Positions 21,045 through 54,326 of a DNA stretch of 64,000 bases are shown here, one piece after another. The stretch covers positions 2,029,001 to 2,093,000 of the forward strand of contig NZ_CP139141.1 in NCBI RefSeq assembly GCF_034059295.1, in the 5' to 3' direction. Made by a program: the position numbers and the translations under genes. This DNA comes from Pseudomonas sp. HR96. Lineage in GTDB: Bacteria > Pseudomonadota > Gammaproteobacteria > Pseudomonadales > Pseudomonadaceae. Position 1 is the first letter of the stretch. Each line of letters starts with the position of its first letter. A model generated the notes under the pieces. That model saw only the letters and a list, made by a program, of their open reading frames with translations. It did not search any database and was not told where the DNA came from.

Positions 21045-21137
21045 GGCCGGTGGTGGCCGTATTGGACATCTCGCCAGGCGCTGGGTAGATCACACCGGCC
21101 TGGCGAACTCCCGGGGGCATTGCCCCCTCCCACATTC
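21045..21137. repeat. solitary diverged copy of the 51-kb repeat
   Basis: The convergent gap between the hybrid kinase and ligD resembles part of the repeat unit at 50.9-53.1 kb. It has GGCCGGTGGTGGCC, then ATTGGACATCTCGCCAGGCG, then ACCGGCCTGGCG, then a GGGGGCATTGCCCCCTCCCAC hairpin half. It shows the element is dispersed rather than confined to the array. Confidence 0.7.
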
Positions 21138-48574: not shown

Positions 48575-50143
48575 ATGCAAACCATGCCAGCCAGCCACCC
48601 TTCCAATCGACCCGCCACAACCGGCAGCTCCCTCAGGAGCTTGCTGAGCTTTATCGTGCTGGTGGCGGTGGTGCTGGTGGCAGCCACCGCCTGGCAGGAT
48701 CTGCAGGCCCGTGATGTGGCCTTGCACAACGCCCAGACTGCCGTGAGCAACCTGACCAGTTCGGTCGCTCGCCAGGCCGAGGACGCTATCCACCAGGCCG
48801 ACAACGTACTCATCGAGCTGGCCGAACGGGTCGCCGAGGACGGCGTGACGCCGGCCAATCGCGAGCGCCTGAGCCGCCTGATGCGCCGCCACGTCCAGGC
48901 CCTGGAGGGTCTGCAGGGGCTGTTCGTGTACGACGAGCAGGGTGATTGGCTGGCCACCTCGTTCGGCGAGCGCGGCGATCACCCGAACAACAGCGACCGC
49001 AATTATTTCATCTACCATCGCGACCATTCCGACCCCGGCGTGCACATCAGCCCGGTGGTGTCCAGCCGCACCACCGGCGAGGCGATCATTCCGATCAGCC
49101 GCCGCCTGGAACACGCCGACGGCAGCTTCGCCGGCGTGGCCCTGGCAACCATTCCGGTCAGCTACTTCGAGACCTTCTTCCACCGCCTGTCGCTGGACGG
49201 CAAGGGGGTGATCTTCCTCGCCATGCGCGACGGCACCATTCTCGTCCGCCGCCCGGCCAGCGCCCCGGGCCAGGCGCAGACGCTGATCAACGGCGAGATC
49301 TTCAGCCGCTACCTGCCGCGCTCACGCCAAGGCACGGCGATGGTCACCTCAGTGGTCGACGGCGTGACGCGCCTGTATGGCTACAGCGAGTCCGAGCAAT
49401 TTCCGTTGGTGGCGGCCGCCGGCCTGTCGCGCGAGTCGATCCTCGCCGACTGGAAGCTGGACGCCTACCGCGACACCCTGCTGGTCAGTGCGGTGATCCT
49501 GCTGTTGTGCCTGATCGGCTCGGTGCTGTATCGCCAGGTGCGCCAGGCCGAGCGAGCCAAGACGCGCCTGGCCGATGCCTACCTGGAGCTCGAGTCGCTG
49601 GCGCAGTCGGACAGCCTGACCGGCCTGGCCAACCGCCGGCGCTTCGACGCCGCCTTGCAGGTGGAGTTTGCCCGGGCCTTGCGCAATCGCACCTCGCTGG
49701 CGGTGATCCTGTTCGATATCGATCTGTTCAAGCAGTACAACGATGCCTATGGCCATCTGGGCGGCGATGAGTGCCTGCGCCAGGTGGCGCAGATCATCCA
49801 GCGCTTCGTACGCCGTCCGGCCGATGTTGCGGCGCGCTACGGTGGTGAGGAGTTCGTGGTGCTGCTGCCGGACACCGACATCGCCGGCGCTCTTACCGTT
49901 GCCGAGCAGATTCGCTATGCCGTCAGCGAAGCGGGCCTGGCGCACCGGGCCGCTCCGCTGGGCCGGGTGACCATCAGCGGCGGCGTGCACGCCATCGATC
50001 GCGCGGCGGCGACCAGCGCGCTGGGCCTGCTGGAGACCGCCGATGCAGCGCTATACCTGGCCAAGCAGAACGGCCGCAATCGGGTCTGCCAGGAGGCTGA
50101 CCGACCCACTGCCTCGGTGGTCAAGCTGCCCACGCGCGGCTGA
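48575..50143 (+). CDS. membrane diguanylate cyclase with periplasmic sensor
   Basis: A 522-residue enzyme. Transmembrane helices lie near residues 20-42 and 305-325 and bracket a PDC/dCache-like periplasmic sensor (FVYDEQGDWLATS). A GGDEF domain follows (about 345-505) with active-site GGEEF near 424 and an inhibitory RPAD five residues before it, so it should make cyclic-di-GMP under product feedback. It is divergent from the BdlA-like transducer, with about 150 bases between. ATGs at 48575 and 48584 are both possible starts. Confidence 0.92.
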   Translation: MQTMPASHPSNRPATTGSSLRSLLSFIVLVAVVLVAATAWQDLQARDVALHNAQTAVSNLTSSVARQAEDAIHQADNVLIELAERVAEDGVTPANRERLSRLMRRHVQALEGLQGLFVYDEQGDWLATSFGERGDHPNNSDRNYFIYHRDHSDPGVHISPVVSSRTTGEAIIPISRRLEHADGSFAGVALATIPVSYFETFFHRLSLDGKGVIFLAMRDGTILVRRPASAPGQAQTLINGEIFSRYLPRSRQGTAMVTSVVDGVTRLYGYSESEQFPLVAAAGLSRESILADWKLDAYRDTLLVSAVILLLCLIGSVLYRQVRQAERAKTRLADAYLELESLAQSDSLTGLANRRRFDAALQVEFARALRNRTSLAVILFDIDLFKQYNDAYGHLGGDECLRQVAQIIQRFVRRPADVAARYGGEEFVVLLPDTDIAGALTVAEQIRYAVSEAGLAHRAAPLGRVTISGGVHAIDRAAATSALGLLETADAALYLAKQNGRNRVCQEADRPTASVVKLPTRG

Positions 50144-50202
50144 CTGGAACAAGCGCGCCGGAACCGTTAAGGTTGGGGCCTTTGAACCGCCGGTCGCCCG
50201 CC

Positions 50203-50670
50203 ATGACGCGTTGTCTCTCGCTGTTGCTGCTTGCCCTGTTGCCCACCCTGGCCTGCGCCGAGGACTCCGCCCCGGCGACGGCGCCCTGGACCCTGCTCGA
50301 CCAGTTCGACAAGGCCTACACCCTGGACGATCAGGCCCACGTGTTGCTGGTGGCACGCAGCATGTCAACCGCCAAATTGGTCAATGCCGCCCTGGAAACC
50401 CGCCCGGCCGGCTACCTGGAAGCGCGCCACACCATCTATGTGGCCGACATCGAGAAGATGCCAGCCATCGCCAAGGCTTTCGCCGTACCGGCCATGCGCT
50501 CGGCCAGGTACCGCATCTTGCTCGACCAGACCGGCCGCGTCGCCCCCCGATACGCCGGCGACCGCGACACCGTGCAGTGGCTGGAATTGAAGAACGGCCA
50601 GGTGGTGCACGAGCAGAAGTTCTCCGATGCCCAGCAGCTGAGCCAGGCACTGGAGGGGTTGGCGCCCTGA
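50203..50670 (+). CDS. small exported protein of unknown function
   Basis: A 155-residue protein with a signal peptide (MTRCLSLLLLALLPTLACA) and a mature alpha/beta domain of about 136 residues that looks loosely thioredoxin-like (HVLLVARS, TIYVADIEKMPAIA) but lacks a CxxC. It follows the cyclase gene by 59 bases and may share its transcript. I do not recognise the family. Confidence 0.7.
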   Translation: MTRCLSLLLLALLPTLACAEDSAPATAPWTLLDQFDKAYTLDDQAHVLLVARSMSTAKLVNAALETRPAGYLEARHTIYVADIEKMPAIAKAFAVPAMRSARYRILLDQTGRVAPRYAGDRDTVQWLELKNGQVVHEQKFSDAQQLSQALEGLAP

Positions 50671-50738
50671 GTAGGGCTCAGGATCGGGCTGGGTGCGATG
50701 TCCAATAGGGGTAGCAGCGGCTGCCTTGGGATTCAATC

Positions 50739-50968
50739 ATGGCCACCACCGGCCGCCCGCGCGGCCTATCGCGGGCTTCGCGCGCTCCCACATTTGTTTC
50801 GGGCGTATGCATCCAGATGCATCACCTATGACCGCCTGGGTGCCTGGCGGCCTATCGTCGAAGATCCAAAGCGCTCATAGGCGATGCCATTGAATGCATA
50901 AAAATCGAAACAAACGTGGGAGCGTGCGAAGCCCGCGATAGGCCGCGCGGGCGGCCGGTGGTGGCCAT
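50739..50968. repeat. type A inverted repeat, first copy
   Basis: Arms 50739-50801 and 50906-50968 match at 61 of 63 positions as reverse complements. Each arm contains the REP-like core CCTATCGCGGGCTTCGCGCG then CTCCCACA. The 104-base interior holds further shorter inverted pairs (TATGCAT/ATGCATA, CCTATGA/TCATAGG), so the whole 230 bases could fold as one long hairpin or cruciform. A later copy has arms at 51471-51507 and 51612-51648, and further copies follow about every 394 bases. Confidence 0.9.
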
Positions 50969-50992
50969 ATTGGACATTTCGCCAGGCGCTCG

Positions 50993-51111
50993 GAAGATCA
51001 AACCGGCCTGGCGGCCTCTCGGGGCCATGCCCCTCCCACGTCGTGGGGTGTTGCGCCTTCGACGTGGGAGGGGGCAAAGCCCCCGAGAGGCCGCAGGCCG
51101 GTTTGATCTTC
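50993..51111. repeat. type B inverted repeat, first copy
   Basis: Arms 50993-51043 and 51060-51111 are near-perfect reverse complements around a 16-base loop. The core is GGCCTCTCGGGG...CCCCTCCCACGTCG, a second REP-like type. Complete copies recur at 51305-51423, 51699-51817, 52092-52210 and 52486-52604; the right end of the array has only left halves. Confidence 0.9.
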
Positions 51112-52827
51112 GATCAGATCCAGGGCCTGACCTGGATTTCGATCACGACCACCACCTGGCGGTCTATCGTCGAAGATCCAAAGCGCTCATAGGCGATGCC
51201 ATTGAATGCATAAAAATCGAAACAAACGTGGGAGCGCGCGAAGCCCGCGATAGGCCGCACGGGCGGCCGGTGGTGGCCATATTGGACATTTCGGCGGGCG
51301 CTAGGAAGATCAAACCGGCCTGGCGGCCTCTCGGGGCCATGCCCCTCCCACGTCGTGGGGTGTTGCGCCTTCGACGTGGGAGGGGGCAAAGCCCCCGAGA
51401 GGCCGCAGGCCGGTTTGATCTTCGATCAGATCCAGGGCCTGACCTGGATTTCGATCACGACCACCACCGGCCTATCGCGGGCTTCGCGCGCTCCCACATT
51501 TGTTTCGGGCGTATGCATCCAGATGCATCACCTATGACCGCCTGGGTGTCTGGCGGCCTATCGTCGAAGATCCAAAGCGCTCATAGGCGATGCCATTGAA
51601 TGCATAAAAATCGAAACAAACGTGGGAGCGGGGGAAGCCCGCGATAGGCCGCACGGGCGGCCGGTGGTGGCCATATTGGACCTATCGCCAGGCGCCAGGA
51701 AGATCACACCGGCCTGGCGGCCTCTCGGGGCCATGCCCCTCCCACGTCGTGGGGTGTTGCGCCTTCGACGTGGGAGGGGGCAAAGCCCCCGAGAGGCCGC
51801 AGGCCGGTTTGATCTTCGATCAGATCCAGGGCCTGACCTGGATTTCGATCACGACCACCACCGGCCTATCGCGGGCTTCGCGCGCTCCCACATTTGTTTC
51901 GGGCGTATGCATGCAGATGCATCACTTATGACCGCCTGGGTGCCTGGCGGTCTATCGTCGAAGATCCAAAGCGCTCATAGGCGATGCCATTGAATGCATA
52001 AAAATCGAAACAAACGTGGGAGCGCGCGAAGCCCGCGATAGGCCGCACGGGCGGCCGGTGGTGGCCATATTGGACATTTCGGCGGCGCCAGGAAGATCAA
52101 ACCGGCCTGGCGGCCTCTCGGGGCCATGCCCCTCCCACGTCGTGGGGTGTTGCGCCTTCGACGTGGGAGGGGGCAAAGCCCCCGAGAGGCCGCAGGCCGG
52201 TTTGATCTTCGATCAGATCCAGGGCCTGACCTGGATTTCGATCACGACCACCACCGGCCTATCGCGGGCTTCGCGCGCTCCCACATTTGTTTCGGGCGTA
52301 TGCATCCAGATGCATCACCTATGACCGCCTGGGTGTCTGGCGGCCTATCGTCGAAGATCCAAAGCGCTCATAGGCGATGCCATTGAATGCATAAAAATCG
52401 AAACAAACGTGGGAGCGTGCGAAGCCCGAGATAGGCCGCACGGGCGGCCGGTGGTGGCCATATTGGACCTATCGCCAGGCGCCAGGAAGATCAAAACGGC
52501 CTGGCGGCCTCTCGGGGCCATGCCCCTCCCACGTCGTGGGGGGTTGCGCCTTCGACGTGGGAGGGGGCAAAGCCCCCGAGAGGCCGCAGGCCGGTTTGAT
52601 CTTCGATCAGATCCAGGGCCTGACCTGGATTTCGATCACGACCACCACCGGCCTATCGCGGGCTTCGCGCGCTCCCACATTTGTTTCGGGCGTATGCATC
52701 CAGATGCATCACCTATGACCGCCTGGGTGCCTGGCGGTCTATCGTCGAAGATCCAAAGCGCTCATAGGCGATGCCATTGAATGCATAAAAATGGAAACAA
52801 ACGTGGGAGCGCGCGAAGCCCGCGATA

Positions 52828-53093
52828 GGCCGCGCGCGCGGCCGGTGGTGGCCATATTGGACCTATCGCCAGGCGCCAGGAAGATCACACCGGCCTGGCG
52901 GCCTCTCGGGGCTTTGCCCCTCCCACGTCTGTCCTGAGATTCAATCATGGCCGCACGGGCGGCCGGTGGTGGCCATATTGGACATTTCGGCGGGCGCCAG
53001 GAAGATCAAACCGGCCTGGCGGCCTCTCGGGGCTTTGCCCCTCCCACGTCTGTCCTGAAATTCAGTCATGGCCGGTGGTGGCCATATTGAACC
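52828..53093. repeat. 121-base direct repeats at the right end of the array
   Basis: Units begin GGCCG at 52828 and 52949, with a truncated third at 53070. Each carries GGCCGGTGGTGGCCATATTG, a half type B element and ends CTGTCCTGA-ATTCA-TCAT. The left edge of the whole array (50731) starts with the same ATTCAATCATGGCC. Confidence 0.85.
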
Positions 53094-53363
53094 TAAAATT
53101 CATTCCAAATATTTCTCAACCCAGCACCGTCTTCGGAAAAATCCGATTGGATAGCATCCCACTTTCCGCTGGCTAGCCACATTGTCGGACGAATTTCCTA
53201 CAGGATCGTCGGAATTTTCCTACAAATCTCGCCGTTCAAAGAATTTAACAACATATTTCCGTGCTTTGGCGCATCTGACATTCCTGCTATAGCTCTGCGT
53301 CGGCCGCCCTGATCGATTCATTCGGGGGGTGGCCGTCCATGATCAGTCAGAGAGCAGAATTCG

Positions 53364-54326
53364 ATGAACAGCACGACCCGGCGCAAGCGCCTTGGCCTGA
53401 TGGCTGCCCTGGCTCTGTTCGGCAGTAGCGTTGCCGCCCAGGCCAACCCCAGCTTCGTCAACATCCTCACCGGCGGCACCAGTGGGGTGTATTACCCGAT
53501 CGGCGTCGGCCTGTCGCAGATCTACGGCCAGCATATCGACGGGGTGAAGGTCTCGGTGCAGGCTACCAAGGCCTCGGTCGAAAACCTCAACCTGCTGCAG
53601 AGCGGCCGTGGTGAACTGGCCCTGGCACTGGCCGACTCGGTGGGCGATGCCAGCCGCGGGGTCGCGGAGGCCGGTTTCAAGCAGCCACTGGACAAGCTGC
53701 GGGCGATCGCCAGCGCCTACCCCAACTACATCCAGATCGTCGCCAGCGAGCAGTCGGGCATCACCACCCTGGCCGACCTCAAGGGCAAGCGCATCTCCGT
53801 CGGCGCGCCCAAGTCCGGCACCGAGCTCAACGCCCGGGCCATTCTCGCCGCCGCAGGCCTGAGCTACGCCGACATGGGCCAGGTGCAGTTTCTCGCCTAT
53901 GCCGAGTCGGTCGAGCTGATCAAGAACCGCCAGCTGGACGCCACCTTGCAGTCCTCGGGGCTGGGCATGGCGGCCATTCGTGACCTGGCCGCCAGCGTGC
54001 CGATCCGTTTCGTGCCGATCCCCGCCGAGGTGGTGGCTGCCATCGACAACCCGGCCTACCAGGCGCTGCCAATCCCGGCCGGCACCTACGACGGCCAGGA
54101 CGCCGACGTGCCAACCGTGGCCATCAGCAACATCCTCGTCAGCCACAGCGGCGTCTCCGACGAGCTGGCCTACCAGATGACCCGCCTGATGTTCGACAAC
54201 CTGCCGCGCCTGGGCAGCGCGCATTCGGCGGTCAAGGACATCGATGTCAAGCATGCCGCCGCCAATCTGCCCATCGAACTGCACCCCGGTGCCCGGCGTT
54301 TCTATGAAGAAATCGGGGCGCTGTGA
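53364..54326 (+). CDS. TAXI-family TRAP transporter substrate-binding protein
   Basis: A 320-residue periplasmic protein with a signal peptide ending near VAAQA (residue 27). The TAXI hallmark NILTGGTSGVYYPIGVGLSQ follows, with SVGAPKSGTELNARAIL in the second lobe. It binds a small carboxylate or amino acid (for example glutamate) for the fused permease encoded next. The stop overlaps the permease region (GTGA). Confidence 0.93.
   Translation: MNSTTRRKRLGLMAALALFGSSVAAQANPSFVNILTGGTSGVYYPIGVGLSQIYGQHIDGVKVSVQATKASVENLNLLQSGRGELALALADSVGDASRGVAEAGFKQPLDKLRAIASAYPNYIQIVASEQSGITTLADLKGKRISVGAPKSGTELNARAILAAAGLSYADMGQVQFLAYAESVELIKNRQLDATLQSSGLGMAAIRDLAASVPIRFVPIPAEVVAAIDNPAYQALPIPAGTYDGQDADVPTVAISNILVSHSGVSDELAYQMTRLMFDNLPRLGSAHSAVKDIDVKHAAANLPIELHPGARRFYEEIGAL

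Follow-up and report, generated by a model that had tools for sequence, protein, structure and literature searches.

The window, a stretch of 64,000 bases from the chromosome of Pseudomonas sp. HR96 (contig NZ_CP139141.1, positions 2,029,001 to 2,093,000), contains a tandem array of approximately 2.3 kb in a gap between two genes. The array (50739..53093, + strand, that is, in the orientation of the query unit) consists of six core copies and two truncated end units. It starts 69 bases past the stop codon of the left flanking gene (50173..50670, +), which encodes 165 amino acids and has no Pfam or NCBIfam family. The right flanking gene (53364..54326, +), encoding a TAXI family TRAP transporter solute-binding subunit, lies outside the array. 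Tandem Repeats Finder reported a 394-base period with 4.5 copies and 96% matches at 51155-52929, together with periods of 312 bases at 50843-51468 and of 121 bases at 52828-53074. Core anchors at 50868, 51180, 51574, 51968, 52361, and 52755 mark the six copies, and the steps between them are 312, 394, 394, 393, and 394 bases. The original prediction of six copies at 394-base steps therefore stands for the copy number and for four of the five steps (one being 393), but not for the first: the A element of unit 2 has no left arm, which shortens this step by 82 bases.

A full module runs from an A element through a linker to a B element and a second linker, and thus combines a pair of class-A and a pair of class-B REPs in two hairpins, with REPs in both orientations and the modules arranged head-to-tail. 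As had been claimed, each full unit combines two different inverted repeats, neither of which was assigned a strand. The longest is the A element of unit 1 (50739..50968), whose 63-nt arms (50739-50801 and 50906-50968) are 97% complementary; unit 2 retains only the core and right arm of A (51180..51257), and the A elements of units 3 to 6 (51468..51651, 51862..52045, 52255..52438, and 52649..52832) have inverted REP arms of 39–40 nt (93–98% complementary) around a 104-nt loop. The B element has 41-nt arms, 73–76% complementary, with 37 nt between them (unit 1, 50993..51111, 76%; units 2 to 5, 51305..51423, 51699..51817, 52092..52210, and 52486..52604). The right end is formed by two truncated 121-base units containing half B elements only (52828..53074, +). 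The linkers are repeated along with the palindromes and the units have diverged little, both in agreement with the earlier description. The closest pair in the array is units 2 and 4 (99.0%), and a run of linker variants is common to units 3 and 5, which would fit the duplication of a two-unit block. Elsewhere in the window, a lone partial B-type element is found at 21045-21133, with 83% identity to the query unit.

The cores are REP-like, as predicted: the A core is GTGGGAGCGCGCGAAGCCCGCGATAGGCCG and the B core is GTGGGAGGGGGCAAAGCCCCCGAGAGGCCG. Both start with GTGG, and the third REP class of this genome starts with GTAG, the usual REP tetranucleotide. A change to GTGG in place of GTAG has been reported for one REP family (PMC3733652). 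In other arrays of the genome, the stem of B is changed on both sides (GGGGGC..GCCCCC and GGGGTC..GACCCC) or on one side (GGGGGC..GACCCC). Two further readings of the locus were tried and rejected. A search for RNA families in 50100-53500 returned only microRNA hairpin matches, all under the gathering score. Open frames of up to 227 amino acids cross parts of the array, and the frame tested as a coding repeat (50916-51596) had no NCBIfam family.

Related arrays on the chromosome

The chromosome contig of this four-contig genome is 5,579,321 bases long; dnaA lies at 0.14 Mb and a single dif-like site at 2.785 Mb. Comparison of one unit with the genome gave 328 matches, approximately 150 of them among the matches listed, and A or B cores within two mismatches occurred 243 times (control pattern: 0). 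Tandem arrays were present in 14 of the 20 stretches taken around unit matches, giving at least 16 array loci with the window included; the main periods of these 16 range from 143 to 450 bases. REP spacing suggests further arrays at 3.087 and 3.690 Mb. The most copies among the arrays found with the unit were at 2482485-2484588 (143 bases × 14.7, B-variant REPs). With at least 16 arrays in one chromosome, this is a good genome for asking whether such arrays grow by transposase or recombination and whether their location with respect to the terminus plays a part.

We aligned 41 units from 14 loci (13 arrays plus one locus with a single copy); of the 16 arrays, those at 2.240, 2.248, and 3.674 Mb, which have short units, were left out. 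Mean identity was 94.4% within arrays (51 pairs) and 83.8% between arrays (749 pairs, excluding those that join the window array to the 2.02-Mb array), and the linkers were homologous across different loci. In the unit tree, five of the 12 arrays with two or more units formed one cluster each and seven did not; therefore, units are also common to different arrays, and simple array-by-array homogenization is ruled out as the whole story. In the arrays at 2.57, 2.73, and 2.93 Mb, some units grouped together across loci and not with their own neighbors. Three units of the 3.26-Mb array, which lies on the other arm and the other strand, were 96–97% like the query over 280 bases, and the repeats of the 3.674-Mb array have only a 44-base B arm in common with it.

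The nearly identical sister of the window array lies 57 kb away on the same strand, at 2.0226-2.0245 Mb (stretch L022, 5562-7464). This 2.02-Mb array likewise has a 394-base unit and begins directly past a stop codon with a diverged first unit (86%). The two arrays have a mean identity of 96.1% over 20 pairs, their units intermix in the tree, and each ends in a diverged 121-base unit (the first of the two in the window) that is 99.2% identical between them. From these alignments, we infer that units, and in one case an array together with its end unit, may have been transferred from site to site, either by copying or through gene conversion.

The genome encodes three REP-associated tyrosine transposases (RAYTs), all above the NCBIfam cut-off, and each adjoins REP arrays or REPs. 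One at 4.2475 Mb (region 4.247-4.249 Mb) lies between a B array with a 126-base period and an A+B array with a 394-base period, another, at 1.745 Mb, is flanked on either side by A REPs, and the third, at 3.4385 Mb, lies just ahead of a 71-base × 3 array of the third REP class (stretch L042, 1074-1284; near 3.438 Mb). The A and B classes could thus be assigned to RAYTs, by proximity only. None of the three matches is in the window or near its array, which bears out the earlier remark that the window has no RAYT gene.

Comparison with known repeats

The array is a hybrid modular BIME, or tandem REPIN array, of a known kind, as published for Stenotrophomonas and P. fluorescens SBW25. It shows the features of these kinds: many short intergenic palindromic cores, inverted REP hairpins, and RAYT genes in the genome that adjoin REPs, together with the head-to-tail modules, both REP orientations, and two REP core classes per module of hybrid BIMEs. 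Bertels and Rainey (2011, PMC3116915) describe 16 ordered REPIN clusters in SBW25 as tandem repeats that include flanking sequences, and the GI–GIII tandem REP arrays at approximately 2 and 4 Mb as oppositely oriented, the two largest being almost identical. The present arrays resemble those clusters and arrays in mixing two REP classes, in repeating their spacers, in occurring several times per chromosome, in having near-identical copies at distant sites, and in the RAYT genes beside clusters. The modules differ, however: as described there, that of SBW25 has 184 bases and two REPs (112 + 72), whereas the present one has 394 bases, four REPs, and two hairpins.

In Stenotrophomonas maltophilia, head-to-tail BIMEs include hybrids with REPs of two RAYTs, and a rolling-circle model is also described (Nunvar 2010, PMC2817692). 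Those hybrid modular BIMEs have in common with the present arrays the head-to-tail modules, the REPs of two RAYTs, and a BIME-associated RAYT gene, but their inter-REP segments are described in that report as lacking homology between BIMEs, whereas the linkers here are homologous across arrays. The BIME-2 elements of Escherichia coli are similar as tandem units of REP and inverted REP with linkers and a flanking RAYT gene, although their REPs belong to other classes and gyrase binding has been reported for them (PMC2817692, PMC8266576). The R0, R2, R178, and R200 repeats of P. fluorescens (Silby 2009, PMC2718517) are also hairpin-forming, intergenic, and preferentially located in convergent gaps; they are tabulated as families of 50–352 bases and were likened to the present unit by description.

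The original prediction held that repeated spacers distinguish the array from ordinary REP or REPIN clusters. This view has to be corrected: published ordered REPIN clusters include their flanks (PMC3116915), repetition of REP clusters together with adjoining DNA segments has been described (PMC3733652), and hybrid BIMEs carrying REPs of two RAYTs are on record (PMC2817692). The possibility that the unit is an already catalogued repeat of the same tandem form was borne out at the level of kind, but not for the exact unit, which was found at E ≤ 1e-20 in none of 397 other Pseudomonas genomes, with two candidates scored per genome in the rows listed, so that diverged relatives may escape. This absence, like that of an array at related TAXI loci (below), is to be expected because REP families are reported to be strain- and species-specific (PMC2718517, PMC2817692). 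At E ≤ 1e-3, weak matches of 40–44 bases occurred in two of 56 other genomes, with at most 12 candidates scored in each, so that diverged relatives may be overlooked here too. The array is thus confirmed as real and belongs, as a well-formed case, to an already known kind of repeat; two aspects merit further attention, namely the copying from site to site and where large arrays lie with respect to dif.

Origin and possible functions

The explanation that we favor, with a probability of roughly 0.75, takes the array as a hybrid modular BIME whose distribution results from RAYT-linked spread, local multiplication with partial homogenization, and exchange between arrays, and which is mainly selfish and tolerated behind genes. 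The composite module, with an A pair and a B pair each followed by a linker, would have arisen first and copies of it would then have reached numerous intergenic positions shortly downstream of genes, probably via single-stranded DNA handled by RAYT. Its two REP classes would belong to REP/RAYT systems with transposase genes elsewhere on the chromosome. Units may subsequently have multiplied and become partly homogenized within arrays by recombination or slippage, with exchange between arrays on top of this. The array would mainly serve its own spread, with transcription ending or gyrase binding as side effects, and its placement behind genes may reflect harm done in other places. This account draws on the observed anatomy, the genome-wide family, the higher identity within than between arrays, the RAYT neighborhoods, the lack of arrays in divergent gaps (0 of 16), and the sister array with its common end unit; from these, we infer RAYT as the mover and recombination as the homogenizer, with no dedicated function. 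Cluster length does change in other bacteria, as in an E. coli mutation accumulation line that lost five of six tandem REPIN copies (PMC8049555). The GTGG cores, the restriction of single clusters to five of 12 arrays, the three of 16 arrays outside the alignment, and the lack of a RAYT near the window array speak against this explanation. If it is correct, the arrays would be a clear case of two REP/RAYT systems joined in a composite that travelled as a single module, with partial homogenization within sites and exchange between them coming later.

Another explanation is that selection keeps the array as a transcription terminator, a stabilizer of mRNA 3′ ends, or a gyrase site for its neighbors. 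Gyrase binding and transcription termination have been reported for BIMEs (PMC2817692, PMC8266576), and the hairpins are strong: a single unit folded as single-stranded DNA reached −158.5 kcal/mol, compared with −80.9 (sd 4.75) for 100 shuffled sequences (z −16.3). All 16 arrays were called between genes, and their neighbors, according to a simple GC3-based gene call, were convergent in eight cases, co-directional in eight, and divergent in none. However, mere tolerance of arrays at gene ends would produce the same bias, and a single REP pair would suffice for termination. A regulatory role at this site is further opposed by the related TAXI loci, none of which (0 of 80 named loci, a few of the stretches being short on the upstream side) had a tandem repeat with a period of at least 60 bases in the 4 kb preceding the TAXI gene, where the window array lies. 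This result also rules out an array conserved at the TAXI-gene site; three of the 80 loci carried a tandem repeat elsewhere in the stretch, and the best relative matched the TAXI/TRAP side at approximately 80% and the left side over 110 bases only. We consider such a selected role improbable. Still less credible is an assembly artefact or an inflated copy number, since the same form recurs with different periods at 16 loci and the 11 units of the window and 2.02-Mb arrays differ at 38 columns; because no two of these units are identical, multiplication of one unit during assembly is unlikely.

Position relative to the terminus

The position of REP loci was analyzed using the 173 exact REP matches, grouped into 61 loci, with non-exact REPs left out. 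The 13 loci containing at least four exact REPs were closer to dif than the 45 loci with one or two (median 0.47 and 1.43 Mb, respectively; one-sided Mann–Whitney p 0.0008), and 11 of the 13 fell in the terminus half compared with 21 of the 45 (Fisher p 0.015), where three loci with three REPs were left out and the cut-offs were set after seeing the data. In 400-kb samples of the present genome, there were eight tandem arrays around dif, one of which resembles a duplicated gene, and one around the origin, with open frames. These contrasts, and the location of SBW25 arrays approximately 2 Mb from the origin (PMC3116915), are consistent with a tie to the replication terminus, in which terminus-biased recombination makes and keeps arrays, or arrays are kept because they help to organize the terminus half. 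We nevertheless regard this explanation as rather unlikely. Two of the 13 many-REP loci, both large arrays, lie far from dif (1.42 and 1.50 Mb), and the post hoc cut-offs and omitted non-exact REPs weigh on the contrast. The unit contains none of four consensus motifs for protein binding or recombination (IHF, matS, KOPS, and E. coli Chi), and 11 of the 16 arrays are oriented with replication (p 0.21). The same sampling in two other Pseudomonas genomes gave one array around dif and none around the origin (G017), and none around dif and two around the origin, both with open frames (G031). On these samples, terminus bias is thus rejected as a general rule, being seen in the present genome only. 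Near the origin of G031, a 630-base period × 13.6 with an open frame (C1:4018372-4026935) resembles a large repeat protein.

A combination of copying and position is conceivable, and we advance it tentatively: multi-unit arrays, end units included, would be copied between intergenic sites on both arms, and their growth would be tied to the terminus, such that single REPs of the same classes are evenly distributed and large arrays lie towards dif. If this were true, the conversion of a dispersed REP into a satellite-like array of bacteria would be driven by recombination biased to the terminus or by exposure of single strands. Among the titles listed in literature searches, none dealt with terminus-biased or concertedly evolving REP arrays.

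More arrays were found within 200 kb of dif. Two are of the third REP class (starting GTAGGAGCCGGCG), one at 2624257-2624628 (125 bases × 3.0) and the other at 2944815-2946066 (157 bases × 8.0). An 80-base unit with the core GTGGGAGGGGCAACGCCCC is repeated 13.8 times at 2972567-2973670, and close to it, an 809-base period × 3.6 (82%) at 2975742-2978634 resembles a tandemly duplicated gene with diverged ends, not a REP array.
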